Under the pieces are notes generated by a model. The model searched no databases. It was given only the letters and a program-made list of their open reading frames with translations, and was not told where the DNA came from. A stretch of DNA of 64,000 nucleotides from assembly GCA_019454045.1 (NCBI GenBank), contig SKCR01006519.1:186001-250000 (forward strand), given 5' to 3'. This document shows positions 14,063 to 63,857 of the stretch, in pieces. This DNA comes from Zanthoxylum bungeanum. Its lineage: Eukaryota; Streptophyta; Magnoliopsida; Sapindales; Rutaceae. Both the position numbers and the translations under genes were made by a program. The stretch's first letter is position 1. Every line of letters starts with the position of its first letter.

Positions 14063-14215
14063 TGATGAGCGGAAAATATATCAATATTTACTGCCCCTTT
14101 TACTTAATATTTTATATAGTTTCTCGAGTTTTATGAATATTTTACAGACAAAATAAAATTGGGACTCAATGGAATAAATTAGGACGAAATATGGAACGAA
14201 GAAGGGCAAAAACTG
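14063..14215 (+). repeat. Left LTR remnant
   Basis: Begins with the family terminus TGATGAG, followed by text parallel to other LTR starts (ACTTAATATTTTATATAGTTTC). After about 150 bp it jumps directly into gag (ACTTTCTGGACTAATGAG, compare 23508). The remainder of the LTR, the primer site and the N-terminal half of gag are deleted. Confidence 0.75.
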
Positions 14216-14884: not shown

Positions 14885-14989
14885 TGTCAAACTATCACCT
14901 TGAAAAGCGGCACTGAAATAAATAAAGATGTTAGAGTTAAAGCATATACTGAGAATGTTCCAAAAGAAAGCAATAAAGTAAATCCATAG

Positions 14990-17900
14990 ATGGAGGAAAA
15001 CGAGGCAAAAGAAAATGATCGAGAAAGATTTATTCCACCTCCACCTTTTCCACAAAGTCTCTAGAAACACAAGCTGGACAAGCAATTTGCTCGATTTCTG
15101 GAGATTTTCAAAAAGCTGCACATCAAAATTCCATTTAAAGAAGCATTGGAATAAATGCCCAGTTATGTCAAATTCATGAAAGATATTATGTCATGAAAGC
15201 GAAGATTGAGAGATTACGAGACTGTAGCACTGACAGAAGAATGCAGTGCCATCATTCAGAGGAAGCTTCCCCCAAAGTTGAAGGATTCTGGCAGTTTCAC
15301 CATCCTTTCCACCATAGGAGAACATTACTTCGGTAAAGCTTTGTGTGATTTAGGTGCTAGTATTAACTTGATGTCTTTGTCTATTTACGGGAAACTGCAA
15401 CTTGGAGAAGCAAAGCCTACCTCAGTCACTCTCCAACTTGTTGATAGATCACTCATATTTTCGAGAGAGGTAGTGGAAGATATGCTGGTCAAAGTCGACA
15501 AATTCATTTTCCCATCATATTTCATTATCCTGGACATGGAAGAAGACAAAGACATACTCATCATCCTCGGAAGACCATTCTTGGCTATAGGTCGAACCAT
15601 CATTGATGTATAAAAATGTGAACTAACCATGTGGGTGCAGGACTAAGAAATAACGTTCAATGTTTTCAAAGCCATGAAATTTCCAAATGATGAACGAGAG
15701 GAGGAATGTTTCAGACTTGATGTAATAGAAAGTATCATTCAGAACACAGATGCAATGCAACTTTCCACTGACAAACTTGAAACATGCATCACCAACATGA
15801 TTGACAGAGAATTAGATGATGATATTTTGGAATGTATCAACTATCTTGATGGAGCCTCTCGCTTTAGATCGACACCACAAGTGGAAAGCTTGGAATTACA
15901 GAAAAAATGAGCGAATCAAACCCTCGATTGAATAATCACCGCATCTAGAACTAAATCCACTTCCGAGCCATCTCAGGTATGCATACTTGGAAAACTCTTC
16001 TGATTTACCTGTGATTATTTCTTCGTCGCTAACGTGGGTGTAGAAAGATAAGTTGTTGAGAGTGTTACGTGAGCATAATAGAGCTATTGGCTGGACTATA
16101 GCAGACATTCGAGGTATCAGTCCATCATTGTGCATGCACAAATGGAGCATCAGCGAAGGCTGAATCCAATCATGAAAGAAGTTTTGAAGAAGAAATCATC
16201 AAATGGCTGGATGCAGACATCATTTACCCCATCTCTGACAGCTCTTGGTTAAGTCCTATGTAATGTGTACCCAAGAAAATAGGAATGAATGTAGTTACAA
16301 ATGAAAAGAACGAGCTGATTCCAACAAGGACATTGACTGGATGAAAAATGTGCATGGACTATAGGAAACTGAACAAAGCCACACAGAAGGATCATTTCCT
16401 GCTATCATTTATTGACCAAATACTAGACAGATTGGCAGACCATGATTTCTACTGCTTTCTGGATGGATACTCGGGGTACAATCAGATTGCCATCGCCCTA
16501 GAAGATCAGGAGAAAATCATATTTACATGCCCGTATGGTACTTTTGCTTTCCGCATGATGCCATTTAAATTCTGTAATGCTCCTGCCACGTTTCAACGAT
16601 GTATGATGGCCATCTTCTCAGACATGATAAAACAAAACATGGAAGTCTTCATGGATGACTTCTCAATGTTTGGAGACGCGTTTGACCACTGCTTGTATAA
16701 TCTGAAAAAATTCTTACAAAGATGTGAAGATACCAACCTGGTACTCAATTGGGAGAAATGCCACTTCATGGTGCATGAATGCATTATCTTGGGACATCAG
16801 ATCTCACAAAAGGGAATCGAGGTAGACAAAGAAAAAATCGAGACAATAGAGAAACTACCTCCACCATCATCCATCAACGGGATTCGAAGTTTTCTTAGGC
16901 ATGCAGGATTTTACAGGAGATTCATCAAAGACTTCTCCAAGATTGCTAAGCCTATGTGCAATCTGTTGGAGAAAGACACGTCGTTCCATTTCACCAAATA
17001 ATGCCACCATGCTTTTGAGATCTTGAAACAGAAGTTAATCTCTGCCCCCATCATAGTAGCACCAGATTGGACGCTTCCATTTGAAGTGATGTGCAATGCC
17101 AGTGATTTTGCTGTAGGTGCGGTTTTGGGACAATGTAACGTGAAAATTTTTCACACCATTTACTACGCCAGCAAAACTTTGAATGAAGCTCAACTCAACT
17201 ACACAATAACTAAAAATGAGTTGTTTATAGTTGTGTTTGCTTTTGATAAATTCCGCTCCTATTTGCTGGGTCTCAAAGTGGTGGTCTACACAAATCATTC
17301 AACAATCAAATACCCGATCACGAAGAAAGATGCCAAGCTCAGATTGATCCATTGGGTGCTTCTATTGCAAGAATTTGACGTGGAGATCTGAGATAGGAAT
17401 GGGACAGAAAATCAAGTTGCAGATCGCTTATCGAGGCTCGAAAATGGAGGTACAACTGGCAATGAACTGACTATTAATGAAACTTTTCCAGATGAACAGT
17501 TGTTTTCCATCAAGCAGCAGAAAGTCCCATGGTATGCTAACTATGTGAACTACATAGTATCGGAGAAATGGCCGTTGGAATGGACATATTAGCAAAGAAA
17601 TAAATTCTTCAAAGAAGTTAAGCATTATGTCTGGGATGAGCCGTACCTATTGAAACATTATGCTGATCAGTTATTGCGGTGTTGTGTACCGCATGAGGAG
17701 GTTAATAGTGTCCTGCATCATTGTCATTCATCACCATACGGCGAACACTTCAGCGGAGACAAAACCGCGGCCAAAGTCCTACAATCAGGTTTGTTATAGC
17801 CCACTCTTTTAAAGATGCTCACTGATTCGTTCTTCAATGTGACATGTGCCAGAGAAAGGGGAATATTTCAAGGAGAAATGAATAACCTCTTCAAAGCATT

Positions 17901-18815
17901 CTCGAAGTGGAGATATTTGATGTATGTGGGATTGATTTTATGAGACCCTTTGTTCCATCATATGGAAACCTGTACATTCTGGTTATAGTAGACTACGTCT
18001 CCAAATGGGTTGAAGCAAAAACACTGCCATCAAATGACACCAAAGTGGTATTAAAATTCCTCAAAAAGAATATTTTCACTCGCTTCGGAACACCTCGAGC
18101 GATCATCAGTGATAGTGGCACAAACTTCTACAATAGATACTTCGATGCACTCCTAGCCAAATACGGAGTTACTCACAAAGTTGCCACTGCATAACATCCG
18201 CAGTCTAATGGTCAGGTTGAAGTTTCCAACAGAGAAATCAATAGAATCCTGAAGAGAACCGTTGGATCAACAAGGAGAGATTGGTCTATAAAATTAGATG
18301 ACGCATTATGGGTCTACCGCACAGCTTACAAGACACCCATTGGAATGTCCCCATATCGAATGATGTTTGGGAAAGAATCCCATATACTTGTGGAGCTCGA
18401 ACATAAAGCGTATTGGGCACTAAAGAAGCTAAATTTTTATCTGCAAACAGTAGGAGAGAAACAGCTCCACCAACTAAATGAATTGGAGGAATTTCGCCTC
18501 CATGCTTATGAGAATGCCAAACTGTACAAAGAAAAGACCAAGAAGTGGCATGATCAGAAAATAGTACACATATAACTAGAACCAGGGCAGTGGGTATTGT
18601 TATACAACTCAAGGTTAAAACTTTTTCCTAGCAAGCTGAAATCACGATGGTCAGGTCCATTTGTGATCACCTATGTTTTACCCTACAGATTCGTTGAGCT
18701 ACATGACTCCAACTCCAATGATACATTCAAAGTCATCAGCCAACATGTCAAACACTACTTGGGAGAATCCATCAAGCATAAAAAAAAGAGTCTCACACTT
18801 GCTGATCCAGGCTAA
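14990..18815 (+). pseudogene. Athila-type pol: protease, RT, RNase H, integrase (copy 1)
   Basis: Order: aspartic protease with DLGASINLM (near 15350); RT with MDYRKLNKAT (16351), FLDGYSGYNQIAIA and the active-site VFMDDFS (16650); RNase H with [13 protein letters not shown] (17090), where the usual catalytic Asp is Asn; integrase with an H/C zinc-binding region (near 17720) and the DDE core CGIDFM (17925), IISDSGTNF (18100) and [10 protein letters not shown] (18205). Several stops (for example 16261, 17389, 17590, 18192) and frameshifts break it. The last codons before TAA at 18813-18815 read TLADPG. The domain order RT-RNase H-integrase fixes it as Ty3/gypsy. Confidence 0.88.
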
Positions 18816-18835
18816 CGTTTGGACAATCATGTTTG

Positions 18836-18947: not shown

Positions 18948-19499
18948 ATGATGGAAGACGTTCTCATAAAACTGAACCAGTATTTTCCTTCTCTCCCTCA
19001 AGACTCTCTGATGAAAGTTTAGAAAGCACGCATTGAAAGAATGAGACTTCTGATGATCAAAGGTATTCCTAGTGATATTCGTTGGATAATTGAAGCACTA
19101 GTCCATTTGACAGGTGAGTCATCTGACTCTTTCATTTCATTTCTGTCTGTTTTAGAAAAAAAAACCTATGCTAAGAAAAGAAGAGCTAAACGATTAGGTG
19201 TTTGTTATAAATGTGCATGTTGTACATGCAATACTCATTATCGTTCTTTAGGAATGGTGTCTGATAATCGCAAATATAAAATAAAATTCATTAGGGATGA
19301 CATGAGTAAAGAGTCTTTAGATGACATATCATTGACTCTTGAGACGCATTCCAGTGGATATGTCTATCACGTAATTCGTACTTTACATACACAGTTTCGA
19401 AGAGAAAGACAACAATTGAGTCTCGAGAATCTGCATTTAAAAGACCCTATTTGCCAATTTATAAGAAAATTAGATGGGAAGCTTGTCCCTAACCCATAG
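18948..19499 (+). pseudogene. Accessory ORF 1: basic-arm/Cys-cluster protein (copy 1)
   Basis: ORF of about 183 codons between pol and LOG, starting MMEDVL after a T-rich tract ending TTTTTGTAG (candidate 3' splice site just before 18933) and ending KLVPNP at TAG 19497-19499. One in-frame TAG at 19020-19022 interrupts it. Features: N-terminal helical region, KKTYAKKRRAKRLG basic arm (about 19160-19195), then Cys cluster CYKCACCTCNTHY, then a charged C-terminal half. Relatives at 28123-28669 and 47181-47726. The basic arm followed at once by C-x2-C recalls the small cysteine-rich nucleic-acid-binding proteins of carlavirus-like plant viruses, but the later Cys spacing is shorter. It could equally be a retroelement-specific protein. 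Confidence 0.6.
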
Positions 19500-19674
19500 A
19501 GGTCATTCAAGCCGTTACTTTCTTTGTCGTTAACTAATTATTGTGATTTATTTTGTTATTTTCTTTTATTTTCACCGATAAGATCCAGACTTTTTGACTT
19601 TCACAATTTAATTTACTGTTAAGCTAATAATTGTCATTTGGAAGGTACTAGTGCTATTATTACTCACCCTTTTT

Positions 19675-19688
19675 CAGGATCTATAAAT
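19675..19688 (+). promoter_or_regulatory. Candidate 3' splice site and TATA box before LOG copy 1
   Basis: ACCCTTTTTCAG ends at 19677 and TATAAAT follows at 19682-19688, 62 bp before the LOG ATG. In copy 2 TATAAAT is at 28871-28877 (again 62 bp before ATG), with CAG mutated to CAT. In copy 3, on the minus strand, the same pair (CATTTTCAG, TATAAAT at 46971-46977) lies about 48 bp before the ATG. Either a spliced subgenomic mRNA or an internal promoter could express LOG. Confidence 0.45.
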
Positions 19689-19743
19689 TCAACTCATCAT
19701 TGCTCACTTCAACACATACAGATTAGAGAGAGTAAAGAAGAAA

Positions 19744-20393
19744 ATGGAAGCAACTTCAAGCAGACGAGTCATGAATATTTGTGTGTTTTACTGGACTAGT
19801 TATGGATCTAAGCCAGAATTTGTTGAGGCAGCGAAAGAATTGGGTAGAGTCATGGTAGAGAGAAATATGCACTTAGTATATGGCGGTGGCAATCTCGGAT
19901 TGATGGGATACATTTCAAAGGCCGTACAGGAAGGAGGTAGTCAAGTTTTGGGAATCATCCCAAAACCTTTGGCGGACGCAAATCTTATTGGACAATCAAA
20001 CAGAGATGAATGCATTGAGTCAGGTATGTCCGAACGACTTGTTGAAATGATTAATCGTGCTGATGCTTTTATTGCTTTGCCAGGTGGCTTGGGCACGATG
20101 GAGGAAATTTTTACAGTGATATCTTGGCCGAACTTGAACATACACAAAAAACCAATTGGACTGTTTAATGTTGATGAATTTTTTGACTTTCTTTTTGTGT
20201 CTCTTGAAGATGCCAGGAGAAATGGGTTCCTTTCAAAACCTGTAAAAGATTCCTCTTCACTGCCAAAAAAACCAATAATTTAATTTACCAACTCTTGACG
20301 TTTGAACCAAATATTGACCATATCATTTCCAAGTTGAACTGGTCTGATGATCGTGGTAAGAAGCGTCAGAAAAATATGGATCTTAACCTTTAG
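19744..20393 (+). pseudogene. LONELY GUY-like cytokinin riboside 5'-monophosphate phosphoribohydrolase, captured (copy 1)
   Basis: LOG enzymes hydrolyse cytokinin riboside monophosphate to the free active base plus ribose phosphate. This intronless ORF is open for 179 codons from MEATSSRRVMNICVF. Conserved LOG blocks: [41 protein letters not shown] and GTMEE (the PGGxGTxEE signature), then KKPIGLFNVDEFF. The upstream conserved Arg (codon 20036-20038) is present. Damage: FCGTS reads FYWTS, and a frameshift near 20250 ends the frame at 20283. The rest of the domain remains to 20393, ending KKRQKNMDLNL. It sits between accessory ORF 1 and the 3' noncoding region, the env-like position of Athila elements. 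Host LOG genes contain introns, so capture through mRNA is likely. Confidence 0.88.
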
Positions 20394-20862: not shown

Positions 20863-22730
20863 TGATGAGTGGTAAATAGATCATTATTTCCCACTCCTTT
20901 AACTTAATATTTTGTATAATTTCTTGAGTTTTGGGAATATTTTGATGTGTTTTGTGTTATTTTGTAGATAAATAAAATAATAAGACTCTCTGGAGGCATT
21001 TCGGGGCCAAAACAGTGAAAAATGGACAAAATGGCAAAATAGCCATTTTCGCGTCGCGACCGCTAAAATGCGCTGGACACGTGTCATCATCATAGAAGTT
21101 TTCTATCATACGCCCTTGCTAACATGCGCCTGACACGTGTCAACATCATAAAAAATCTGCTAAAATGTGCTGTGCCACGTGTCACCATCACATGCTACCG
21201 ATACTTATCATTGAGACATGTTATTGATGAAGTCATGATGATGTCAGTGTCGCGACGCAAGCACAATCTTACGCGTCACGACGCGGAGCCAATAATTGAG
21301 ATAATCATTTAGCCGATGCTACGTGTCACCATCCCCGCGAAAGCCGTGCAACGTGTCATTCATCAACGACGCGTCGCGACGCGTGGAGGCAAAATTTTCC
21401 TATAAATAGAGGCCGAATTTCATTTGTAAATTCATACTTTCTTCTAAATAATTCCTTAAGAATACTAAGAAGATTGTATCTTGTTTGTTTATTTACAACT
21501 TTCAGTATTTAATTTTCGCAATTGCATTTTTTTTTTTTTTTACTTTTCAGTTTTTACTTTTCAGTAATGATGAGGTAACTCTCCCCTGCTGGGGTAAATG
21601 GTAAAGCTTTTATTACTAATATTTAGATTAATCTCCCTTAATTATAATATATAAACTATTTAAAACCTGACTTAATGAGGATATCGCCTTTATGGTCGAT
21701 TGGACTTAATGAAATTGGTTTTAACCTGACTAAGCTGGATATCGCTTGTATGGTTGGTTGGTAATTAATTATAAATTTGACTTAATCATGATACCGCCTA
21801 TATGGTCGGTTGGTAACATCACGCAAAGTTAATATATTATAATAAATGAGATATCTAAAATAGTAGTAATAAAAGTGGATCTTCTAACCCCCAACATTTT
21901 CTTTTATTGTACTTTTATATTTTTAATTTCCAGCATTTACTTTATTTAATTTTCAACATTTACTTTATGTCTTTTATTTTATTTAAGCTTTTATTAGCCT
22001 TAGATATGTGTCGTAACTAAGTCTGTTATATGGGGTTGTGATGAATTCCAATATCACCGGTTTATAAGGTGTTATTTCATGTTTTGGGTAATATAAAGGT
22101 TTATTTATTAATTCTTAAGCTTAATGCTTCTTGTTAACTGGCCATTAATAAGATTGATCTGGTAAACTTAAAATAAACTTGACAAAGGAATTTTAAGTTT
22201 CAGCCTTAGACTTAATAGTCCACGATCTTCATTGAGGATAAATAACCCTTTAATAGATTTCCTTACAGGATAGACATATACCTGTCGGGCGGGGGTAGCC
22301 ATAATTGAAACTTAAACTTAATGAATTCAGGTAACTTGGTTGACATAGACATATGATTAATTGGGTTACATTGGGTATTTGCATCTGACCATCGACAGAG
22401 GCGTTTACATAATTTCATTTTCCAGATTAATAAACCAATATATTACACAAACGTAAGATAACCATTTCATCTTTAAAAGATATTGGATGAATTCACAACC
22501 CTGGATAGTTTAATAATCTTGAATTTTCCTCAATCTACTTTCGCGTTGTTTTCACTTGTTTTAAATTTAAAGTCACCATTCAATCAAACAACCAATATAT
22601 TAGATATTCATAAATATTTGGCTTCATAAATTAATAGCTTAGGTATTAAGTCCTCGTGAGATCGATACTTTTTATACTACTTGAACGATACGTGCGCTTG
22701 CATTATACGCGTGTGATTATGCTCCGGTCA
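20863..22730 (+). repeat. Middle LTR, complete (1868 bp)
   Basis: Starts TGATGAG and ends CCGGTCA. The core promoter TATAAATAGA is at 21401-21410, so U3 is about 0.57 kb and R-U5 about 1.3 kb. U3 carries ACACGTGTCA sites and TCGCGA palindromes (near 21052, 21374). It serves as 3' LTR of the first internal part and 5' LTR of the second. Confidence 0.85.
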
Positions 22731-22736
22731 AGTTTT

Positions 22737-22754
22737 TGGCACCGTTCCCGGGGA
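22737..22754 (+). other. Primer binding site (tRNA-Asp type)
   Basis: TGGCACCGTTCCCGGGGA, six bases after the LTR end. It differs at two positions from the version at 53189-53206, which matches the 3' end of plant tRNA-Asp as used by Athila elements. Confidence 0.8.
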
Positions 22755-22861
22755 TTTATTTATCTTTCATTATTAGTTTTGAGGTTAGATAACTTTACTT
22801 GTATCTAATTTTTTTAACTTATTATTTATGTTTTCTTGTGTTTCAAGTTCTCAGACACTAC

Positions 22862-24139: not shown

Positions 24140-24184
24140 AAAGCGATACTGAAATCAACAAAGATGTTGGAATCAAGGCTTCTA

Positions 24185-27945: not shown

Positions 27946-28122
27946 ACAAAAAGAAAGTGACACACTTTCAGATCCAGCCTAACATTCGGGCAGTCATGTC
28001 TAGCTGACGATGTTAAACTTAGCGCTAGCTAGGAGGCAACCCATGCAATTTGTGTATATATTGTGATTTGGTGTGATTTATTTTTGTATGTTTAATTTGT
28101 GTTAGTAAAGTCACATTTCATA

Positions 28123-28932: not shown

Positions 28933-29586
28933 AATGGAAGCTACTTCAAGAAGACGGGTTGTAAACATCTGTGTGTTTTGCGGTACTAGTGTTGGTTCTA
29001 AGCCAGAGTTCATTAAGGCAGCACATGAATTGGGTCGAGTCATAGCTAAAAGGAATATGCACTTAGTATATGGCGGTGGCAATCTTGGACTAATGGGGAT
29101 CGTTTCAAGGCCTGTACAGGAAGGAGACAGTCAAGTTCTGGGAATCTTCCCAAAACCATTGGCAGAGGCGAATCTTATAGGACCATCAAACGGAGAGGAA
29201 CTAATCGTGCCAGGTATTTCTGAATGACTGGTTGAAATGATTAATCGTGTTGATGCTTTTATTGCTTTGCCAGGTGGCTTAGGTACGATGGAGGAAATTT
29301 TTACCGTACCATCTTGGGTGAACTTAAACGTACACTAGAATCCGATTGGAATATTTAATGCTGATAGATTTTATGATTTTCTTTGTGTGTTTCTTGATGA
29401 TGCCCGGAGAAATGGATTCGTGTCAAAACATGTAAAAGAACTCCTCTTTACTGAAGAACTGCCCAAGATTTAATTGATCAAATTGTAGCCTTTGAATGAC
29501 AAATTGACTCTATCCTTTCCAAGATTAATTGGTCTGATAATGATCGTGGTAAAAAGCATCAGATAAATCTAGATCTTAACCTTTAA
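28933..29586 (+). pseudogene. LONELY GUY-like gene, captured (copy 2)
   Basis: Intronless LOG homologue from MEATSRRRVVNICVFCGTSV to a C-terminus GKKHQINLDLNL at TAA 29584-29586. LVYGGGNLGLMG and [15 protein letters not shown] are intact, and the N-terminal FCGTS, lost in copy 1, is kept. Breaks: TGA at 29225-29227 in place of the Arg codon of SERLVEM, TAG at 29337-29339, and frameshifts near 29450 and 29500. The same Arg codon is TGA in copy 3. A further in-frame ATG exists at 28913, but 28933 matches the other copies. Accessory ORF 1 is 0.26 kb upstream. Confidence 0.88.
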
Positions 29587-30385: not shown

Positions 30386-30562
30386 TATAAATTAATAAAA
30401 AAATGGAAAAAGCAGAAAAATATTCCATTGCTAAAAAAAGTGTGAATTCTGATATAACTTTAGGACAAAAATATTACCATCTTTTCAACTACACTTATGA
30501 ATATTGTGGGCACAATGATTTGATTAATACCTTGTTAGGTGTGTATATGGAGAATGATGTGT

Positions 30563-32694
30563 TTTTGTGAATATTTTGATGTGTTTTGTGTTATTTTGTA
30601 GATAAATAAAATAACAGGACTCTCTGGAGGCATTTTGGGGCCAAAACATTGAAAAATGGTCAAAAAGGGAAAAATAGTCATTTTCGCGTCGCGATCGCTA
30701 AAATGCGCCGGTTATGCTAAAATACACCGGACACGTGTCATCATCATAGAAGTTTTCTATCATGCGCCCTTGCTAATATGCGCCTGACCCGTGTCCACAT
30801 TACATCAAATCTGCTAAAATATGTCGTGCCATGTGTCACCATCACATGCTGCAGACACTTATCATTTAGACACGTCATTGATGACGTCATGATGATGTCA
30901 GTGTCACGATGCAAGCACAATCTTAAGTGTCATGATGTGGAGCCAAGATAATCATTCAACTGACGCAACATGTCACAATCCCCGCGAAAGCCGTGCAACG
31001 TGTCCTTCATCAACGGCGCATCGCGACCGCTAAAATACGCCGGACACGTGTCATCATCATAGAAGTTTGCTATCATGCGCCATTGCTAACATGCGTCTGA
31101 CATGTGTCAACATCATAGCAAATATGCTAATATGCGTTGTGCCACGTGTCTCCATCACATACTGCCAACACTTATCATTGAGACACGTTATTGATGATGT
31201 CATGATGACGTCAGTATCGCGACGCAAGCATAATCTTACGTGTCGCGACGCGGAGCCAATAATTGAGATAATCATTCAGCCGACACTATGTGTCACCATC
31301 CCCACGAAAGCCGTGCAACATGTCATTCATCAACATCGCGTGGAGGCAAAATTTTCCTATAAATAGGGGCCGAATTTCATTTGTAAATTCATACTTTCTT
31401 CTAAAGAATTTTTTAAGAATACTAAGAAGATTGTATATTGTTTGTTTATTTATAACTTTCAGTATTTAATTTTCGCAATTGCACTTTCTTTTCTTTACTT
31501 TTCAGTTTTTACTTTTCAGTAATGAGGAGGTAACTCCCCATGCTGGCGTAAAAGGTAAAACTTTTATCACTAATATTTAGATTAATCTCCCTTAATTATA
31601 ATATATAAACTATTTAAAACCTGATTAATGAAGATACTGCTTTTATGGTCGGTTGGACTTAATGAAATTGGTTTTAACCTGACTAAGCTGGATACCGCAT
31701 GTGTCGGTTGGTAATTAATTATAAATTTGACTTAATCAGGATACCGCCTCTATGGTCGGTTGGTAACATCACGCAAAGTTAATATATTATAATAAGAGAG
31801 ATATCTAAAATGGTAGTAATAAAAGTGGACCCTCTAACCCCATCATTTTCTTTTATTGTACTTTTATATTTTTAATTTCTAACATTTACTCTCCAACATT
31901 TACTTTATTTAATTTTCAACATTTACTTTATGTCTTTTATTTTATTTAAGCTTTTATAAGCCTTAGATATGTGTCGTAACTAAGTCCGTTATCTGAGGTT
32001 GTGATGAATTCCAATATCACCGGTTTATAAGGGGTGATTTCATGTTTTGGATATTATAAAGGTTTATTTATTAAGTTGTAAGCTTAATGCTTCTTGTTAA
32101 CTGGCCATTAATAAGATTGATCAGGTAAACTTAAAATAAACTTGACAAATGAATTTTAGATTTCAACCTTAGACTTAATAGCCCACGATCTTCCTCGAGG
32201 ATAGATAACCCCTTAATAGATTTCCTTACAGGATAGACATATACCTGTCGGGCAGGGGTAGCCATAATTGGAACTTAATCTTAATGAATTCAGAGTTTCT
32301 TGATTAACATAGACATATAGTTAATTGGGTTATTTTGAGTGTTTGCATCTGACCATCGACATAGGATTTTGTATATCTTCGTGCTCCAGGTTAATAAACT
32401 AACATATTACACAGACATAAGATAATCACTTCATCTTTAGATGAATATTGGAAGGATTCACAACCCTAGGTAGTTTCATATCATTGATTACTTTTTAAAT
32501 TTACTTTAGCTTTATTTTATTTACTTGTTTTCATATAAGATCACCAACCAAATAACAATCAATTGTTAGATACTTGTAAAAATTTAACTTCAATAAAATT
32601 AATAGCATATGTATTAAGTCCTCGTGGGATTGATACATTTTATACTACTTGAACGATACGTGCGCTTGCATAACGTGAGTGATTTCACCAATCA
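30563..32694 (+). repeat. Right LTR with internal 332-bp tandem duplication
   Basis: The first roughly 70 bp and the adjacent PPT are missing; internal text (GTGTATATGGAGAATG) joins the LTR near 30557-30563. Units 30689-31020 and 31021-31352 are direct repeats (both start TCGCGAYCGCTAAAATRCGC), whereas the middle LTR has one copy (21051-21390). TATAAATAGG is at 31358-31367. Ends CAATCA, followed by ACCAC. Confidence 0.82.
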
Positions 32695-41220: not shown

Positions 41221-42702
41221 TATGGTTTCTCATATTATTATTATTATTCTTTCAAACAAAAAATTAACGGGAGAAAATTATGTTAAATGGAAAATTAATA
41301 TGAACGTCATTCTAGTCTGTGAAGACCATAAGTTTGTCCTGATGGAGGAATGTCCTCCATAACTAGCGAGAAATTATGGCCAAGCTGTATGCGATGCCTA
41401 TCAGAAATGGGTCGCGGCCAACGAGAAAGTCTGCTGCTACTTACTAGTAGGGATGTCCGAGGTTCTTGCTACAAAGCATGAGCCAATGGCTACGATATCT
41501 TTGATGATGAAGTCATTGCAAGGCATGTTCGGGCAGCCTTTGGAACGGCAGTGTCATGAGGCTATGGTCTTAGCGATGAGCTCTAGGATGAAGGAATGGG
41601 CATCAGTCTGAAAGCACGTCTTGAGGATGATGACTTATCTCAATACAGCCGAAACTCATGGAGCTCGTATTGACGAGCGTAGCCATGTGACCATGATCAT
41701 GGAAACTCTTTCAAAGAGTTTCCTGCAGTTTTAAAGCAACTATGTTATGAACAAGTTGGCTTTTACTTTGACTCAACTACTAAATGAGCTCACCCATTAC
41801 GAGTCCATGCTGGTGGATCCTCGTAAGCCCAATGGAGAGGCAAATGTTGCTGAATCTTCTAAATCTGTCAAGAACAAGAAGAAAGACACTGAGAAGGCTA
41901 AGCAAAGCCTATGAAGAAGAACAAACCAATGATGCCAAGCCCAAGGGAAAGTGTTTCCATTGCAACAAGGATAAGCATTGGAAAAGAATCTGTCCTAAAT
42001 ACCTTGCTGAGATGAAAGAGAAAAATGCCACAAGTAAATACGATTTACTTGTCATCGAATCTCTTTTAGTGGAGGATGATAAATTCGCATGAATTATTGA
42101 TTCTGGAGCCACTAACCATGTTTTTTTCTTCTTTGCAGCTACTTGATTCATGGAAGGACCTTGTTGAAGGTGACTACACCATGAGAATCGGGACAGGGGA
42201 TGCCATTTCAGCAAGAGCAGTGGGTGTTTCTACTTTAAGCTTTTTAAATAATAGTTATTTATGTTTGAACAATATGTTATTTATTCCTCATTTTCGCAGG
42301 AATTTGATTTCTATTTCTAAACTTTTGGATGATGGTTTTTCCGTTTCATTTAATAATAATTTGGTTATTACTCGCATAATTGGATTAACTATATGCACAA
42401 GAAATTATATAAATAATTTATCTGTGTTAAGGCCATTAACACATAATTCAATACTCAATACTGAAATGTTTAAGGTTGAAAAACCTAAAAATAAGGGCAA
42501 AAGATTTCTTATGACACATATCTGTGGCATCTTAGACTTGATCATATTAGCCTTGACCGGATAGATAGGGTGATGAAGAATTGAGCTTTAAATCAGGTAA
42601 AGCTTGAGACTTTACCAGTCTGCGAATCATGTCTCGAAGAAAAGATGAACAAGAGACCTTTTACTGAAAAGGTATAAGAGCCAGTCAACCACTTGAGCTA
42701 AT
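41221..42702 (+). pseudogene. Ty1/copia gag-protease-integrase N-terminus
   Basis: Copia gag domain with KLTGENYVKWKINMNVI (41260-41315), broken by TAA at 41360 and TGA at 41609, then a CCHC zinc knuckle, CFHCNKDKHWKRIC (41950-41990), the protease motif IIDSGATNHVFFF (42090), GTGDAISARAVGVSTLSF, FRRNLISISKLLDDG and integrase N-terminal CxxC text near 42620 (CESCLEEKMN). It stops at the CTAAT where the minus-strand Athila element enters. Order and motifs are standard Ty1/copia. The second part lies at 55254-56040. Confidence 0.82.
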
Positions 42703-44803
42703 TGACCGACGTAAACACACACGCATATAACACAAGCGCACGTATCGTTCAAGTAGTATAAAAAGTATCGATCCCACGAGGACTTAATACCTAATCTATT
42801 AATTTTATGAGGTCAAATGATTACTAATATCTAACAGGTTGATTGATTGATTTGAAATGGTGAAGATTTTAAATTTAAAAACAAGTAAATAAAATTATAC
42901 GAAGGTAGGTTTAAGAAAATTCAATATTAAAAACTATCTAGGGTTGTGAATCTTTCTAATATCTTTTAAAAGATGAAGTGGTTATTTCATATTTGTGTAA
43001 TAAATCGGTTTACTAACCTGGAACACTAAATTATGCGAAAGCCTCTGTCGATGGTCAGACGCAAATACCCAGTATAACCCAATTGAACCATATGTCTATG
43101 TCAACCAAATTACCTGGATTCATTAAGTTTAAGTTCCAATTATGGCTACCCCAGCCGACAGGTATATGTCTATCCTGTAAGGAAATCTATTAAAGGGTTA
43201 TCTATCCTCAAGGAAGATCGTGGGCTATTAAGTCTAGGGCTGAAACCTAAAATTCCTTTGTCAAGTTTATTTAAGATTTACCAGATCAATCTTATTAGTG
43301 GCCAATTAACAAGACGCATTAAGCTTAAGACTTAATAATAAACCTTTAAATTACCCAAACTATAAAATAACCCCTTATAAATCGGTGATATTAGAATTCA
43401 TCACAACCCCAGATAACTAACTTAGTTACAACACATAACTAGGGCTAGTAAGAACTTAAAAGTAAAAGACATAAAGTAAAAATGCTGAAAAGTAATTGCG
43501 GTAAAGTAAAAGCTGAAAAGTAAATTATAATAAAATAGAATGCTAAAGTAAAAGGATCAACTTTTACTATTTACTATTTACTATTTAGATATCTCACTTA
43601 ATATAATATATTAACTTGTGATTATTTTACCAACCGTCCATATAAGCGGTAACCTGATTAAGTCAAATTAAGTCAAACCAGCCATAAAGACGGAACCAAA
43701 ATAAATCTGCCATATAGGCGGTAAGAAAATTTAATTACCAACCGATCAATCTGGCGGTATCATTGATTAGTCAGGTTTAAACCAGATTAAAATGAATTAC
43801 CCACCGACCAATATAGCGGTACCATTTTTAAGTCAAATTCTAAATAGTGAATATATTATATTTAAGGGAGATTAATCTAAATAGCAATAGTAAAAGAATT
43901 ACCTTTCACCATAGCAGGGGGAAGTTACCTCCTCATGGTTGAATAGTAAAAATTGTAAAAAGTAAAAAAGTAAATTACTATTATTACAGAGTGTAATTAA
44001 AAATTAATTACAAAACTAAAATTTAAAAGAAACTAGATAGAAAACTCCCTATTTACATCAGAGAATTCAGAGAGGAAGGTACATCTAAAATTGAAATTTC
44101 AAGCTCTATTTATAGGCGTCAATAGGGTGTCTGTGTCGCGACGCGCAGCTCGCGTCGCGACGCGAGTGATTGTCGACGTGCCAGCTTCTGGTTCGTCAGC
44201 TTCACATTCTTATCTGACATGTGGCGATTCGGATAAAGGGATAAGGTGACACGTGGCAAGGCGGCTGGGAGCTGAATGAATGAGCTGACGTGGCGATGAC
44301 ATGGGGATATGTGGCGAAAGTGACTGTCGGCACCATAGAATGATGACACGTGACACGCTGTGATTGGTGATTGATGACGTGGCGGTGATGTGGCATATTG
44401 ACTCGGTCAACTGGTGATGTGGACGATGACGTGGGGTGACACGTGGCGGCACATGGCGATGGCGACTGTCGGCACCATAGGATGATGACACGTGGCACAT
44501 CGCACATTAGCAAAGTCAAACTTCTCTGATTCTGACTTGTGGACCCGGCGCACGTTAGTAAGTCTTGGTGCATGTTAGGCGTCGCGACGCCTAGGTGTTG
44601 CGCGTCGCGACGCGCAAAATGACGAAAATGCCATTTTGGTCTAATTTTCACTGTTTTGGCCCCAAATCACCTCCAGAATGTCCTGAAACTTTATTTATCT
44701 ACAAAATAACACAAAACACATCAAAATATTCACAAAACTCAAGAAACTATACAAAATATTAAGTTAAATGAGTGGGAAATAGTGATATAATTACCACTCA
44801 TCA
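42703..44803 (-). repeat. 3' LTR of minus-strand element (2101 bp)
   Basis: Plus-strand text runs from TGACCGACG to CCACTCATCA. The TATA box is read as TATAAATAG on the minus strand (44106-44114). GC-rich palindromes with core TCGCGA are at 44136-44166 and 44579-44616, and ACGTGKC-type motifs cluster at 44210-44500. Confidence 0.92.
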
Positions 44804-44822
44804 CACCTCCAAACCTAACATT
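44804..44822 (-). other. Polypurine tract of minus-strand element
   Basis: In element sense it reads TTAGGTTTGGAGGTG directly against the LTR start TGATGAG. The equivalent at 62292 reads AGGTTTGGGGGTG. It would prime plus-strand DNA synthesis. Confidence 0.75.
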
Positions 44823-46140: not shown

Positions 46141-46929
46141 TTAAAGGTTAAGATCCAGATTAATCTGACGCCTCTTACCACGATCGTCCTCGGACCAATT
46201 TATCTTTGAAAGGATAGGGTCAATTTGTGGTTCATAAGCTAAGATTTGGTCAATTAGATCCGGAGCAGTTCTGGCAGTAAAGAGAAGTTCTTTCATATGT
46301 TTTGACACGAACCCATTTCTCCGAGCATCATCAATAAACACACAAAGAAAATCATAAAATCCTTCAACGTTGTACACTCCAAGCGGTTTCTGGTGTATGT
46401 TCAGGTTCGCCCAAGATAACACTGTAAAAATTTCCTCTAATGTACCCAAGCCACCTGGCAAAGCAATAAAAGCATCAGCACAGTTAATCATTTCTACCAG
46501 TCATTCAGATATACCTGGCACGATTAACTCTTCTCTGTTTGATGGTCCAATAAGATTTTCCTCCGCCAAGGGTTTTGGGACGATTCCCAAGACTTGACTG
46601 CCTCCTTCCTGTACAGCATTTGAAACGATCCCAATAAGTCCAAGATTGCCTCCGCCATATACTAAGTGCATATTCCTTGCAGCTAAGACTCGACCCAATT
46701 CCTGTGCTGCTTCTACGTATTGTGGCTTAACACCAACACTAGTTCCGTAAAACACAAGATGTTTTCAACTCGTCTTCTTGAAGTGGCTTCCATGTTTTAC
46801 TCTGCATATTCCTTGCAGCTAAGACTCGACCCAATTCATGTGCTGCTTCTACGTATTGTGGCTTAACACCAACACTAGTTCCGCAAAACACACAGATGTT
46901 TTCAACTCGTCTTCTGAAGTGGCTTCCAT
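46141..46929 (-). pseudogene. LONELY GUY-like gene, captured (copy 3), with internal duplication
   Basis: Intronless LOG homologue. From 46793 downward it reads NMHLVYGGGNLGLIG, GSQVLGIVPKPL, then TGA at 46501-46503 at the conserved Arg position, followed by an open frame (46141-46491) with [32 protein letters not shown], the C-terminal IDPILSKINWSEDD and RGKRRQINLDLNL. The 5' part is duplicated: a 136-bp segment occurs twice (about 46666-46801 and 46802-46937), giving two ATGs (46929 and 46793), each followed by a different 1-nt deletion. The C-terminal half is the best preserved LOG segment in the window. Confidence 0.9.
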
Positions 46930-47859: not shown

Positions 47860-50800
47860 AACATTAGGCTGGATCTGAAAGTGTGACACTTTCTTTTTGT
47901 CGCTCAAATGATTATCCCCAGTAGTGCTTGACACGCTGACTGTTAACCTTGAATGTTTCGTTGGTGTTGGGATCTAGTAACTCAACAGCTCCATATGGAA
48001 AAACCCGAGTGATCACAAATGGACCTGACCACCTTGATTTCAACTTTCCAAGGAAAAGTTTCAACCTTGAGTTCCAACTGTCTGTGCACTATTTTTCGGT
48101 CATGCCATTTCTTGGTCTTTTCTTTGTACAATCTGGCATTCTCATAAGCCTGTAGGCGAAATTCCTCCAATTCGTTGAATTGGTGAAGACTTTTCTCTCC
48201 TGCAGCTTGTGAATCAAGATTCAACTTCTTCAGTGCCCAGTACGCCTTGTGTTCAAGCTCAACTGGCAGATGGCACACTTTTCCAAACACCAATCGATAT
48301 GGGGACATACCAATGGGTGTCTTGTAAGCTGTTCGGTAGGCCCATAATGCATCATCTAGTTTTGTAGACCAGTCATTCCTTGTTGATCAAACGGTTCTCT
48401 CCAAGATTCTTTTGATCTCTTTGTTTGAAACCTCAACCTGTCCATTTGACTGTGGATGGTAAGCAGTGGCAACTTTGTGAGTAACTCCGTATTTGGATAG
48501 GAGTGCATCAAAGTATCTATTACAGAAATATGTGCCACCATCACTGATAATTGCACGAGGTGTTCCGAACCGAGTGAAAATGTTCTTTTTCAGGAATTTG
48601 ATCACCACTTTTGAATCATTGGATGGCAGTGCAATTGCTTCGACCCATTTGGAGACGTAGTCTACAGCAACCAGGATGTACAGGTTTCCGAATGATGGAA
48701 CAAAGGGTTTCATGAAATCAATACCCCATACATCGAATATTTCCACTTCTAGAATGTTTTGCAACAGTCCTTCATTTCTCCTTGAAATATTCCCCATTTT
48801 CTGGCACCTGTCACATTGAAGAGCAAAAAGATAAGCATCTTTAAAAAGAGTGGGCCAGAACAAACCTGATTGTAGGACTTTAGCTGCAGTTTTGTTTCCG
48901 CTAAAGTGTCCGCCATATGGTGATGAATGACAGTGCTGCAAAACACTGTTGACTTCCTCCTGTGGAATACACCGTCTCAATAATTGATCAGCACACCATT
49001 TGAACAGGTACGGCTCATCCCAGACATAGTGCTTGACTTCTTTGAAGAATTTCTTCCGTTGCTGAGTTGTCCATTCCAACGGCCATTTTCCTGACACAAT
49101 GTAGTTGACATAGTCAGCATACCAATGGGCATTTTGCTGTTTCATGGCAAATAGTTGTTCATCTGGAAAAGTTTCTTTGATTGACAGATCTTTGCCAGCA
49201 GTTTCTCCATTCTCGAGCCTCGATAGATGATCTGCCACCTGATTCTCTGTCCCTTTCCTATCTCGAATCTCCACGTCAAATTCTTGCAGAAGAAGTATCC
49301 AACGGATCAATCTGGGTTTGGCATCTTTCTTTGTGATCAAGTATTTGATTGCTGAATGATCTGTGTAGACCACCACTTTGGGACCCAGCAGATAGGAGCG
49401 GAATTTGTCAAAAGCGTATACAACTGTGAGTAACTCTTTTTTAGTGGTTGTGTAGTTGAGTTGAGCTTCATTCAAAGTTCTGCTGGATGGAGTAGTAATG
49501 GTGTGGAAAATTTTTGCTTTGCGTTGTCCCAAAACTGCACCTACAGAAAAATCACTAGCATCACACATCACTTCAAATGGAAGGGTCCAGTCTGGTGCTA
49601 CAATGATGGGAGCAGAAATCAGCTTCTGTTTTAAGATCTCAAAAGCTTCCTGGCATTCTTTGGTGAAGTTGAAAGGCACATCCTTCTCAGAAGATTGCAA
49701 AGAGGTTAGAAATCTTGGAAAAGTCTTTGATAAATCTCCTGTAAAAACCTGCATGTCCGAGAAAGCTCCGAATCCCTTTGACAGATGTCAGCGGAGGTAG
49801 TTTTTCAATTGTTTCAATCTTTTCTTTGTCTACCTCAATTCCTTTTTGTGAGATCCGGTGTCCAAGAACAATGCCTTCATGTACCATGAAATGACATTTC
49901 TCCCAATTGAGCACCAGGTTTGTATCTTCGCACCTTTGTAACACCTGTTCCAAATTTTGCAAGCAGTGGTCAAAAGAATCTCCAAACACAGAAAAGTCAT
50001 CCATAAAAACCTTCATACTCTGCTCCAGCATGTCTGAGAAGATGGCCATCATGCAACGCTGAAATGTAGCAAGGGCATTACATAATCCAAATGGCATCCT
50101 GCGGAAAGTAAAAGTACCATAGGGACATGTAAAGGTAGTTTTCTCCTGATCTTCTAGTGCGATGGCAATCTGATTGTACCCTGAATATCCGTCCAGAAAG
50201 CAATAGAACTCATGTCCTGCCAGTCTGTCTAACATCTGGTCAATGAATGGTAGCGAAAAATGGTCCTTTCTCGTGGCTTTGTTCAGCTTCCTGTAGTCCA
50301 TGCATATTCTCTATCCAGTCACCGTTCTTGTTGGGATTAGCTCGTTATTTTCATTGGTAACCACAGTAATTCCTCCTTTCTTCGGCACACAATCCATATG
50401 ACTTACCCAACTGCTATCTGAGATGTGGTAAATGATGGCAACATCCAACCATTTGATTATTTCTTTCTTTACGACTTCATTCATGATTGGATTGAGTCTC
50501 TGTTGATGCTCCACTGTGGGTTTGTACTCATCATTCATCAGAATCTTGTGCATGCAAAATGATGGACTAATGCCTCGAATGTCTGCTATAGTCCAGCCAA
50601 TGGCTCTTTTGTGCTCTCGTAATACTCTCAGCAACTTTTCTTCCTGCTCCAATGTTAGTGAAAAAGAAATAATAACAGAAGAGTTTCCAAGAAATGCATA
50701 CCTGAGATGGCTCGAAGTAACTTCAGCTCCAACTGTGGTGGTTCTTCAATCGAAGGCTTGATTCGATATTTCTTTGGCAGTTCCAAGCTTTCAACTGGTG

Positions 50801-51829: not shown

Positions 51830-53080
51830 CTAAGCATTAGCCAGTTGTCCGATTTGATTCTCTAGTGCTTTGATGGAAGCAGATTGGTTCTGAAATATAG
51901 CATCATACTTTTTTAACTGAGCCATCACTTCTGCTATTCCTGGTTCATTTGTCTGCTCCTGGCCTTTGTTCTGTTGCTGGAATCCAGGTGGTGGATAGTT
52001 CTGCTGTTGGAATACAGATGGTGGATTGTTCTTTTGCCCTGAATTGTTACTCCATGAAAAATTAGGATGATTCCTCCACCATGGGTTGTAGGTGTTGGAA
52101 TATGGATTGCTCCACTGTCTGTTGAAATTGTTGACATAATTCACCGTTTCTTCAAGTTGGTTTGGTTCTGGTGCTCCTCCATATGGTGAACTTGTGGATC
52201 CAGTGGTAAGAGTCTCCATGAATTTGCATATCTGATCCAGCTTGGCGTTGACTGCTGTATTGGCTCCACTTTCATAAATTCATGCAATTCTTTGGATCAT
52301 GCTCCTTTCTGTTGGCCACAAGGAATTGTTGTTGGCCATTTCTTCGATTAGGTCCCAAGCTTGATCTTCTCCTTTCGCCATTAAAGCTCCTCCAGCAGTA
52401 GCATCGATTGTGGTTCTAATTATTCCAGAAAGTCCATTATAGAATGTTTGGACTTGAAGCCATTTTGGAATCTCATGGTGAGGACATTTCCGGAGCAAAT
52501 CTTTGTACCTTTCCCAAGCTTCGTAGAGAGTTTCTGAGTCTTGTTGTACAAATGATGTGATGTCATTCCACATTTTTCCAATTCTGGTTAGTGGAAAGTA
52601 CTTTGCAAGAAATTTGGTGGCTAAAGTGTTCCAAGTTGTGATGGAACCTGCTGGTAGTGAATGTAGCCAAGCTTTAGGTCTGTCCTTCAAGGAGTATGGA
52701 AAAACACGCCGTCTTATTGCTTCTTCAGCTTCTCGGTTGTAATTGAAAGTGTCGCAAACTTCCAGGAAGTTGCTGATGTGGGCATTAGGATCTTCAGTTG
52801 CATTCCCCCCAAACTGAACTGACTGCTGAATCATCTGAATGCATGTTTTGATGTCTCCCGCATTTGATGGTAAGGGAGGAAGTACTATACATGAAATGAG
52901 TCTGTCAACCACCGGAATGGTTCTGTCTCGAATGGGAATTGGTGGTGCAACTTCCAAAGGTTCAGGTTCCATGTTGACTAAAGCTTATTGGGCTTCTCAC
53001 CTTTCCCTTCTCAACTGTCTGATGGTTCTTTCAATTTCTGGGTCAAGCGGTCGGAGTTCAAAGCTTCTGGTTCGTCTCAT
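51830..53080 (-). pseudogene. Athila-type gag (copy 3)
   Basis: ATG at 53080 (MRRTRSFELRPLDPEIERTI). Two stops (TGA and TAA near 52980-53000) precede a long open part, 52280-52972, with PIPIRDRTIPVVDRLIS, NFLEVCDTFNYNREAEEAIR, WLHSLPAGSITTWNTLATKF, LYEAWERYKDLLRKCPHHEI and LIEEMANNNSLWPTERS, then a Gln/Asn/Pro-rich tail (51830-52219) with GAPEPNQLEETVNYVNNFN. The core is a typical Athila gag domain. Accessible frame past the two early stops would need downstream initiation, for example at 52972. Confidence 0.88.
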
Positions 53081-53188: not shown

Positions 53189-53206
53189 TCCCCGGCAACG
53201 GCGCCA
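53189..53206 (-). other. Primer binding site, tRNA-Asp type, perfect
   Basis: In element sense TGGCGCCGTTGCCGGGGA, six bases after the LTR. It complements the 3' end of plant tRNA-Asp, the primer of Athila elements. Confidence 0.9.
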
Positions 53207-53212
53207 AAACCT

Positions 53213-55253
53213 TGACCGGCGTAAACACACACGCATATAACGCAAGCGCAAGTATCGTTCAAGTAGTATAAAAAATATCGATCCCACGAGGACTTAATAC
53301 CTAATCTATTAATTTTATGAGGTCAAATGATTACTAATATCTAACAAGTTGATTGATTGATTTGAAATGGTGAAGATTTTAAATTTAAAAACTAGTAAAT
53401 AAAATTGCACGAATGTAGGTTTAAGATAATTCAATATTAAAAACTATCTAGGGTTGTGAATCTTTCTAATATCTTTTAAAATATGAAGTGGATATTTCAT
53501 GTTTGTGTAATAAATCGGTTTACTAACCTGGAACACTAAATTATGCGAAAGCCTCTGTCGATGGTCAGACGCAAATACCCAGTATAACCCAATTGAACCA
53601 TATGTCTATGTCAACCAAATTACCTAGATTCATTACGTTTAAGTTCCAATTATGGCTACCCCCGCCCGACAGGTATATGTCTATCCTGTAAGGAAATCTA
53701 TTAAAGGGTTATCTATCCTCAAGGAAGATCGTGGGCTATTAAGTCTAAGACTGAAACCTAAAATTCCTTTGTCAAGTTTATTTTAGATTTACCATATCAA
53801 TCTTATTAGTGGCCAATTAACAAAATGCATTAAGCTTAAGACTTAATAAGTAAACCTTTAAATTACCCAAACTATAAAATAACCCCTTATAAATCTGTGA
53901 TATTAGAATTCATCACAACCCTATATAACTAACTTAGTTACAACACATAACTAGGGCTAGTAAAAAACTTAAAAGTAAAAGACATAAAGTAAAAATGCTG
54001 AAAAGTAATTGCGGTAAAGTAAAAGTTGAAAAGTAAATTACAATAAAATAAAATGCTAAGGTAAAAGGATCAATTTTTACTATTTACTATTTAGATATCT
54101 CCCTTAATATAATATATTAACTTGTGATTATTTTACCAACCGTCCATATAGGCGGTAACCAGATTAAGTCAAATTAAGTCCAACCAGCCATAAAGGCGGA
54201 ACCAAAATAAACCTGCCATATAGGCCGTAAGAAAATTTAATTACCAACCGACCAATCTGGCGGTATCCTTGATTAGTCAGGTTTAAACCAGATTAAAATG
54301 AATTACCAACCGACCAATATAGCGGTATCCTTTTTAAGTCAAATTCTAAATAGTGAATATATTATATTTAAGGGAGATTAATCTAAATAGCAATAGTAAA
54401 AGAATTACCTTTCACCCTAGCAGGGGGAAGTTACCTCATGATGGTTGAATAATAAAAACTGTAAAAAGTAAAAAAGTAAATTACTATTATTACATAACGT
54501 AATTAAATATTAATTACAAAACTAAAATTTAAAAGAAACTAGATAGAAAACTACATATTTACATCAGAGAATTCAGAGAGGAAGGTACATCTAAAACTGA
54601 AATTTCGCGCAGCTCTCGTCGCGACGCGAGTGATTTTCGACGTGGCAACTTTCTGGTTCGTCGGCTTCAGATTCTTATCTGACATGTGGCGATTGGGATA
54701 AAGAGATAAGGTGACATGTGGCAAGGCCGCTGGGAGCTGAATGGTTGAGCTGACGTGGCGATGAGCGACACATGGCGAAAGTGACTGTCGGCACCATAGA
54801 ATGTTGACACGTGGCACGCTGTGATTGGTGATTGATGACGTGGCATGTTGACTCGGTCAACTGGTGATGTGGACGATGATGTGGGGTGACACGTGGTGGC
54901 ACGTGGCGATGGTGACTGTCGGCACCGTAGAATGATGACACGTGGCACGGCGCACGTTAGCAAAGTCAAACTTCTCAGATTCTGACTTGTGGACCTGGCG
55001 CATGTTAGCAAGTCTTGGTGCATGTTAGGCGTCGCGACGCCTAGGTGTTGCCTGTCGCGATGCGCAAAATGATGAAAATGCCCTTTTGTCCAATTTTCAC
55101 TGTTTTGTCCCCAAATCACCTTCAGAATGTCCTGAAACTTTATTTATCTACAAAATAACACAAAACACATCAAAATATTCAAAAAAACTCAAGAAACTAT
55201 ACAAAATATTAGGTTAAATGAGTGGGAAATAGTGATATAATTACCACTCATCA
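53213..55253 (-). repeat. 5' LTR of minus-strand element (2041 bp), TATA deleted
   Basis: Runs from TGACCGGCG to CCACTCATCA on the plus strand. Compared with the 3' LTR (44090-44160), about 45 bp carrying TATAAATAG is missing at a junction near 54605, where GAAATTTC is followed directly by GCGCAGCTC. Confidence 0.9.
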
Positions 55254-56040
55254 CTAATACATTCAGACGTTTGCGGACTGATGAATTTAAAAGCCCGATG
55301 AGGTTATGAATATTTTGTCACATTTATTGATGATTATTTTATATATGGGTACGTTTACCTAATGCAGCATAAGTCAGAATCTTTGAAAAGTTCAAAGAGT
55401 ATCGTGCTGAGATTGAAAATCAATTAGGTAAGACGATCAAAACTCTACGATCGGATCGTAGAGGAGAATACCTTGATAGAGATTTCAAGGAATTATTAGT
55501 TGAGCATGGGATAGTATCCCAGCTCAAAGCACCTGGAATACCATAGTAGAATGGTGTTGCGGAAATGAGAAATCAGACATTCCTAGACATGATAAGATCT
55601 ATATTTAGTTATAATTCACTGCCTAGTTCATTTTGGGGATACACATTGTAAGCAGCAATCTATATCATTAATTTAGTTCTATCTAAGTATGTTCCTAAGA
55701 CTCCTTTAGAGTTGTGGAGTGGTTGTAAAGCTAGTTTATGATATTTCCGTATATGATGGTATCAGGTTCATGTGCTGAAGAATAAGACTACTAAGTTGGA
55801 GCCACGTTCTCATGTGTTCTTTGTAGGCTAACCTAAGGAGACTAGGGGTGAGCTCTTTTATAGTCTGAAAGATAACAAAATGTTTGTGTCGACAAACACT
55901 ACGTTTCTTGAGGAGGACTATATGAGAGAGTTCAAACCTCGAAGTAAAGTGTTACTCGAGGAGTTACTTGCTAGTTCGACCAGCACACCATCATCAACAA
56001 TTGTTGACAGAAACATAACACCTTCAACATCTGAGCGTTA
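55254..56040 (+). pseudogene. Ty1/copia integrase core, continuation
   Basis: The copia reading frame resumes in phase after one copy of CTAAT is set aside. Motifs: YEYFVTFIDDYF, then LRSDRRGEYLD-like text (the second catalytic Asp), VSQLKAPGIP, then GVAEMRNQTFLDMIRS with the Glu region and a later MFVSTNTTFLEEDYM. Several stops and frameshifts. RT is absent: at about 56041 another LTR begins. With 41221-42702 it gives a copia gag-to-integrase remnant. Confidence 0.8.
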
Positions 56041-63589: not shown

Positions 63590-63857
63590 TTAAAGGTTAA
63601 GATCCAGATTAATCCGACGCCTCTTACCGCGATCGTCCTCGAACCAATTTATCTTTGAAAGGATAGGGTCAACTTGTGGTTCATAGGCTATGAGTTGGTC
63701 TATTAGATCCGGAGCAGTTCTGGCAGTAAAGAGGAGTTCTTTCAAAGGTTTTGACACGAACCCATTTCTCCGAGCATCATCAAGAAACACACAAAGAAAA
63801 TCATAAAATCCATCAACGTTGAGCAGTCCAATTGGTTTGTGGTGTATGTTCAGGTTA
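63590..63857 (-). pseudogene. LONELY GUY-like gene, C-terminal part (copy 4)
   Basis: Open C-terminal third of the LOG homologue: NLNIHHKPIGLLNVDGFYDF, LDDARRNGFVSKPLKELL, APDLIDQLIAYEPQVDPIL, then GKRRRINLDLNL and TAA. The PGGxGTxEE half is missing because the gene is joined at about 63857 to LTR sequence. No disabling change is present in what remains, and its tail has the clearest basic patch plus LDLNL. Confidence 0.85.

Follow-up and report, generated by a model that had tools for sequence, protein, structure and literature searches.

A plant LONELY GUY (LOG, PF03641) gene captured by a Ty3/gypsy retrotransposon lineage has most likely become the gene of a retroelement accessory protein, which may act in the nucleus. 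In the Zanthoxylum bungeanum DNA analyzed here, a stretch of 64,000 nucleotides (the window) and the 3.96-Gb assembly (51,709 contigs) searched along with it, the gene is present throughout the element family, bears the signature of purifying selection, has an altered pocket and a C-terminal tail, and is preceded by a conserved upstream block. To the explanation as a whole, in which an Athila-like lineage captured LOG and the protein, with its changed pocket and tail, would serve a nuclear accessory role, we assign a probability of about 0.5.

A LOG-derived gene in the env-like slot

All four elements of the window carry a LOG homolog between the integrase and the 3' LTR (Table 1), and blastn and tblastn searches thereby confirm the first-pass annotation, which had placed such a gene in the env-like slot of these elements. 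Copy 1, which matches Arabidopsis LOG3 (PDB 2a33) with an E value of 1e-43 and in which the motifs PGGLGTxEE and GGGNLGLMG are readable as described there, is open from 19744 to 20283 and undergoes a frame shift near its 3' end, with the tail continuing in another frame. Copy 2 has premature stops and a late frame shift, and copy 3 a frame shift near its start and a premature stop; one premature stop in the active-site region is common to these two copies, both of which are further damaged. None of the four window copies is intact. Their number stands as annotated, with two corrections: LOG in copy 3 runs on the minus strand from 46793 to 46142, with about 46929-46794 representing a partial duplication of its 5' end, and copy 4 comprises the 3' part only, starting inside the gene after LTR-like sequence.

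Table 1. Positions of the element parts and extra genes in the window
Feature	Position	Strand	Basis
RT piece, element A	16348..17001	+	PF00078 E 9.5e-22
Integrase pieces, element A	17886..18575	+	rve PF00665; ORFs
Second extra ORF, related to carlavirus nucleic-acid-binding (cysteine-rich) protein	19023..19499	+	genome relatives L010, L016
Conserved upstream block	19660..19743	+	sequence; highest conservation of any 50-nt window upstream of LOG, 63 genome copies
LOG homolog copy 1	19744..20393	+	PF03641 E 4.3e-30; LOG3 E 1e-43
LTR between elements A (3') and B (5'), matched part	21050..22718	+	87.8% to 31017-32684
PBS, element B	22737..22754	+	tRNA-Asp-like, two mismatches
LOG homolog copy 2	28934..29585	+	blastn 80% to copy 1; PF03641 E 2e-24
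3' LTR, element B, matched part	31017..32684	+	match to 21050..22718
3' LTR, element C, matched part	42702..44804	-	match to 53212-55254
LOG homolog copy 3	46142..46793	-	blastn 80%; PF03641 E 1.6e-29
Partial duplication of copy 3 5' end	about 46794..46929	-	second tblastn match 46912-46802; frames
RNase H and integrase, element C	48387..49754	-	PF17917, PF17919, PF17921, PF00665
RT, element C	49687..50301	-	PF00078 E 1.5e-27
gag, element C	52280..52972	-	PF03732 E 1.6e-20
PBS, element C	53189..53206	-	exact match to tRNA-Asp complement
5' LTR, element C, matched part	53212..55254	-	92.1% to 42702-44804
LOG homolog copy 4, 3' part only	63591..63856	-	blastn/tblastn; sequence

The elements show the features of Ty3/gypsy retrotransposons (Metaviridae), namely gag, the RT-RNase H-integrase order, LTR pairs and a PBS, with the complete set, including gag, in elements B and C. 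The K2P distance between paired LTRs, calculated over gap-free columns, is 0.107 for element B and 0.049 for element C. The LTR between elements A and B is apparently common to both (window 20929-32684), and a tandem with one LTR in between is the arrangement that unequal recombination would leave. A match to Rfam snoR71, a plant C/D-box snoRNA (59.4 bits), lies at 23366-23472 on the minus strand, antisense to the gag region of element B.

Frame scans of positions 14137-18820, 22700-30600 and 45300-53200 detected no second RNase H (aRH) at E <= 1e-3, as is characteristic of Athila elements. The PBS matches the tRNA-Asp complement exactly in element C and with two mismatches in element B, and a PBS of this type is an Athila trait. 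On these two grounds, the elements are likely of the Athila type, as first annotated. The aRH domain marks the Tat lineage, according to passages of PMC6317226. As in Athila elements with an env-like ORF, for which excerpts of PMC6317226 and PMC7264820 describe the order gag-RT-RH-INT, the window elements have extra ORFs in sense orientation between pol and the 3' LTR. However, this slot is filled here by LOG-derived and NABP-like proteins, whereas the other Athila elements described in these excerpts encode env-like proteins with transmembrane domains.

The NABP-like ORF, situated between pol and LOG, is assigned to the carlavirus-type nucleic-acid-binding proteins through two genome relatives. 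Locus L010 (712-1080) matches PF01623 with 31.4 bits (E 1.8e-7) and PF05515 with 24.0 bits (E 4.2e-5), and locus L016 (689-1078) reaches 29.9 and 23.7 bits, all above the gathering cut-offs of 20.9 and 23, respectively; the window ORF itself scores below both (19.3 and 17.3 bits), and the window region 47368-47760 on the minus strand has no match to either profile. A protein search returned 205 relatives among 224 candidates. Among the best 120 listed, 51 are 182 amino acids long, and the named ones come from Xanthoceras, Acer, Rhamnella and the asterid Orobanche; in the Rhamnella relative (P0327), the NABP-like protein is continuous with an integrase-like C-terminal end. The best-ranked literature matches contained no report linking this ORF to retrotransposons. 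Its indel rate (8.8 per kb per copy) suggests that it is decaying in this host.

Across the genome, the presence of LOG is a trait of the family and not the result of a single transduction. A profile search found PF03641 in all 150 scored candidate loci; the first-look totals of 47,331 PF03641 and 71,117 integrase matches are loose and do not represent copy numbers. A LOG-independent sample was drawn by searching with the integrase piece of copy 3 (150 scored) and taking 20 loci at ranks 3-60 of this one list, which are close kin of copy 3. All 20 carry LOG, one of them in truncated form, at a constant distance of about 1.5 kb after the integrase match. The family-level acquisition proposed in the first-pass annotation is thus borne out, and LOG is missing from none of the sampled members. 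A scan of viral contigs gave 67 pattern matches, none of them to a relative. A matK search gave 35 matches, which are plastid fragments inside nuclear contigs; for a large fragment (G000:C40003:160561-161558) in a contig otherwise regarded as nuclear, transfer of plastid DNA is likely.

Purifying selection and decay

LOG was under purifying selection on internal branches, with ratios of non-synonymous to synonymous change of 0.15-0.37 compared with 1.0 for a non-coding control. We read 73 copies (70 loci chosen by PF03641 score plus window copies 1-3), and in 38 of them a frame that begins with Met stays open for at least 210 codons; open copies contain no intron, in agreement with the earlier description of the gene as intronless. 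Removal of near-identical copies left 64, a set whose choice by PF03641 score favors conserved copies. Its internal branches accumulated 102.5 non-synonymous and 218.5 synonymous changes and no stops, corresponding to a ratio per site of 0.148, and its terminal branches gave a ratio of 0.363 with 24 stops. In two segments outside the Pfam profile used for finding the copies, the internal ratio was 0.26 (residues 1-50) and 0.17 (tail residues 204-217, with only 16 changes).

A second comparison, with kappa-weighted sites, yielded internal and terminal ratios of 0.261 and 0.458 for all LOG copies (78 kept). For integrase-anchored LOG (17 kept of 22 rows, which were the 20 loci plus the first two window copies), the values were 0.366 and 0.449, with one internal stop, indicating a weaker constraint than these loci show at their pol end (0.087 and 0.280; 11 of 20 kept). 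By contrast, 3' non-coding sequence read as codons gave 1.007 and 0.670 (18 of 20 kept). A ratio near 1 on internal branches, which the first-pass annotation had associated with a gene that never functioned in the elements, was therefore not observed. Indels, many of which are single-base and may in part be assembly errors, amounted to 4.0 per kb per copy in LOG, 3.3 in the pol end, 13.4 in intergenic sequence, 8.8 in the NABP-like ORF and 9.5 in 3' non-coding sequence (the last from only four sequences).

Decay is nevertheless widespread. The LOG frame is open in two of the 20 integrase-anchored copies, and five frame shifts are each common to two or three copies, so that LOG is dispensable in cis. 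Loci L071, L074 and L090 are among those with shared frame shifts, that is, elements with a dead LOG multiplied. Because LOG-dead elements also spread, the protein is probably supplied in trans.

An altered pocket, a basic tail and relatives in other plants

The encoded protein has the PF03641 domain and the LOG fold of type I phosphoribohydrolases, together with the PGGxGTxxE motif and the catalytic Arg/Glu pair of the LOG family; the family's set of cytokinin pocket residues (H97, K100, E125, W129) is not preserved. In the LOG protein of C. glutamicum, passages of PMC4979012 attribute catalysis to R99 and E122, adenine binding to M96, K100 and E121, and binding of the prenyl group to M96, H97, K100, E125 and W129. 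Canonical LOGs, retrieved with LOG3 and LOG8 segments (best 120 of 7,835 listed, among which LOG5 and LOG7 types were not identified), are identical at the 13 sites compared in all 120 listed rows. With copy 1 as the query, 7,949 of 8,000 scored proteins qualified as relatives at E <= 1e-10; the plants named in the best 120 rows listed are Xanthoceras, Dipteronia, Populus and Reevesia. These 120 listed retro-like rows mostly keep R99 (106), E122 (117), T119 (117) and W129 (115), and far fewer keep H97 (43), K100 (12) or E125 (13). In the genome copies, R99 is found in 62 of 64 and E122 and W129 in every one; serine occupies position 97 in all 64, and none has K100 or E125.

The catalytic R99 is replaced by Q in 12 of the 120 listed retro-like rows (P0005, P0007, P0008, P0013, P0016, P0018, P0024, P0028, P0035, P0102, P0111 and P0112); apart from P0018, those reaching the C-terminal end keep a basic, leucine-rich tail. 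Since most relatives carry substitutions at K100, E125 and often H97, and given these Q99 rows, a cytokinin-activating enzyme, as the first-pass annotation had called it, is doubtful, although its catalytic pair is mostly kept. An AlphaFold model of the relative P0002 (39-row alignment, pLDDT 87.1) aligns with 2a33 at a TM score of 0.95 by target length and 0.76 by query length (rmsd 1.1). Residues 203-217 of this model have pLDDT values below 50, and given this low confidence, the tail is probably disordered.

Plant LOG1/3/8 proteins (PDB 2a33, 1ydh) share with retro-LOG the fold, the PGGxGTxEE motif and the catalytic pair. Unlike most retro-LOG proteins, they have the canonical MHxRK...E..W pocket and no LxLxL tail. 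Plant LOG1/3/8 genes contain introns. When listed rows with 205 or more residues are compared, the short motif LxLx[LIF] lies within the last nine residues of 58 of 80 retro-like proteins but in none of the 118 canonical proteins; the last 18 residues include a basic triplet in 69 of 80 versus one of 118, and both are combined in 54 of 80 versus none. LOG5 and LOG7 types are not known to carry an LxLxL tail. The genome copies end in LxLx[LIF] in 56 of 64 cases, and window copy 1 shows a partial match (NMDLNL). The early-branching rows P0022 and P0031, as well as P0067, a near relative of P0022, combine a canonical pocket with the lack of LxLxL, and P0040, which branches off next, carries the tail alongside that pocket. 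This pattern suggests that the tail was gained before the pocket was lost, unless the early rows lost the tail.

In a 56-row tree (33 retro-like, thinned from 89 long ones; three from this genome; 18 hand-picked canonical proteins of the LOG1/3/8 kinds; two bacterial), the retro-like rows and the genome's own copies form one clade (99/96), separate from the canonical LOGs (93/95). This clade includes Xanthoceras, Dipteronia and Reevesia proteins and a Populus type (P0043 and P0058, which share 86% identity or more with named Populus proteins), the retro-like rows of other species being known here from protein sequences alone. A single ancient capture would fit this topology, as would a single capture that spread later.

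A YgdH (LOG-family) domain in LTR elements of Citrus sinensis, C. clementina and Populus trichocarpa is mentioned in passages of PMC9289625, which cites Steinbauerova et al. 2011, so the earlier statement that no plant LTR retrotransposon with LOG cargo had been described does not hold. Like the elements studied here, these LTR elements belong to the Gypsy type and bear an additional domain of the LOG family, and a Populus-type protein joins the same clade in the present tree; the host differs, and the passages concerned contain no analysis of the domain's pocket, tail, selection or upstream signals. LOG-carrying LTR elements are thus known, and in the open-licence literature searched we found no prior account of selection, pocket, tail or upstream-block data for them. 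Passages of PMC9289625 also describe Ty3/gypsy elements of orchids that encode an m6A RNA demethylase domain, likewise a case of a Gypsy family retaining a domain from a cellular enzyme; the enzyme is a different one, and the title calls it functional.

Upstream signals and possible roles

The conserved block consists of TTACTCACCCTTTTTCAG, which resembles a 3' splice site and extends to 19677, and the TATA-like CTATAAATTC at 19681-19690, followed by a short leader and then LOG. Across 63 copies, mean conservation is 0.937 in the 50 nt from -80 and does not exceed 0.881 in any of 285 windows lying wholly above -85. TATAAAT or TATAAAA occurs within 120 nt upstream in 60 of 64 copies, where base shuffling predicts 5.9; CAG together with a pyrimidine run is present in 57 of 64, as a raw count. 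In P0005, P0008 and P0070, the leader is read through as protein ('VYKF', 'PYKF'), consistent with TATAAATT there. The block may act as an internal promoter or as a splice acceptor. For barley Bagy2, excerpts of PMC7264820 describe a spliced env-like message.

We propose that an Athila-like Ty3/gypsy lineage long ago captured a spliced plant LOG transcript, which would have been retained downstream of pol, ahead of the 3' LTR, in the role of an accessory gene. Along the branch to the present genome, the protein, which has a basic C-terminal LxLxL tail, would have preserved the fold of LOG, its phosphate-binding loop and its catalytic Arg/Glu pair and lost the adenine- and prenyl-contacting residues of the cytokinin pocket. 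LOG would be made from a separate message, generated through the internal TATA or by splicing of the LTR transcript, and probably be supplied in trans to LOG-dead elements. Basic LxLxL tails resemble NLS and EAR motifs, and the nuclear and co-repressor roles proposed here would follow from this reading. The protein could enter the nucleus through its basic tail and act either as a nuclear nucleotide phosphoribohydrolase with a changed substrate or by binding TOPLESS-type co-repressors through its EAR-like LxLxL motif, and this nuclear action might help the expression or integration of the element.

An active cytokinin-releasing LOG, whose local cytokinin would favor dividing cells in which insertions are inherited, would agree with the fold, the catalytic Arg/Glu pair and the phosphate loop kept in most rows, with the selection on the gene, and with the full canonical pocket of P0067 and the early branches P0022, P0031 and P0040. 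We consider it unlikely, however, since K100, E125 and often H97 are replaced in most other rows, the genome copies have S97 throughout and neither K100 nor E125, Q99 occurs in 12 of the 120 listed rows, and this activity would not require a nuclear-type tail. The same Q99 rows, several of which reach the C-terminal end with a basic, leucine-rich tail, would suit a purely structural cofactor, that is, a nucleotide-binding scaffold for capsid, movement or RNA handling in which catalysis is irrelevant; with R99 and E122 kept in 106 and 117 of the 120 listed rows, such a role seems improbable as well.

It is far less probable that LOG is a neutral passenger, captured once and carried without function. 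Such a gene could well be closed in 18 of 20 integrase-anchored copies and amplified in frame-shifted form, but it is contradicted by internal ratios of 0.15-0.37 against a control of 1.0, an indel rate close to that of the pol end and below that of the non-coding parts, and a clade and tail common to several plants. We reject it on the basis of dN/dS and indel rate, unless the internal-branch signal reflects ascertainment. Coincidental retrogene insertions beside the elements, which have the lack of introns and nothing more in their favor, are refuted by the constant place of LOG, found at the same position and distance from the integrase in 20 of 20 sampled copies.

The captured LOG turned accessory protein is the reading we favor. 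More tentatively, it might form an accessory module with the NABP-like zinc-finger protein of plant-virus type, in which a LOG-derived hydrolase re-tuned off cytokinins and bearing a nuclear EAR-like tail would act on host silencing or transcription for the element. If so, a retrotransposon would have made a nuclear effector out of a hormone-metabolism enzyme.

According to excerpts of PMC7264820, the additional genes that plant Gypsy elements carry downstream of pol, before the 3' LTR, form a class with unclear roles. For retro-LOG, the parent enzyme and its active site are known and very many copies exist in one genome, and its functional change can therefore be traced residue by residue. 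Moreover, judging from their proteins, some plant genes annotated as 'LOG', including many of the Reevesia and Xanthoceras rows, may be transposon genes.
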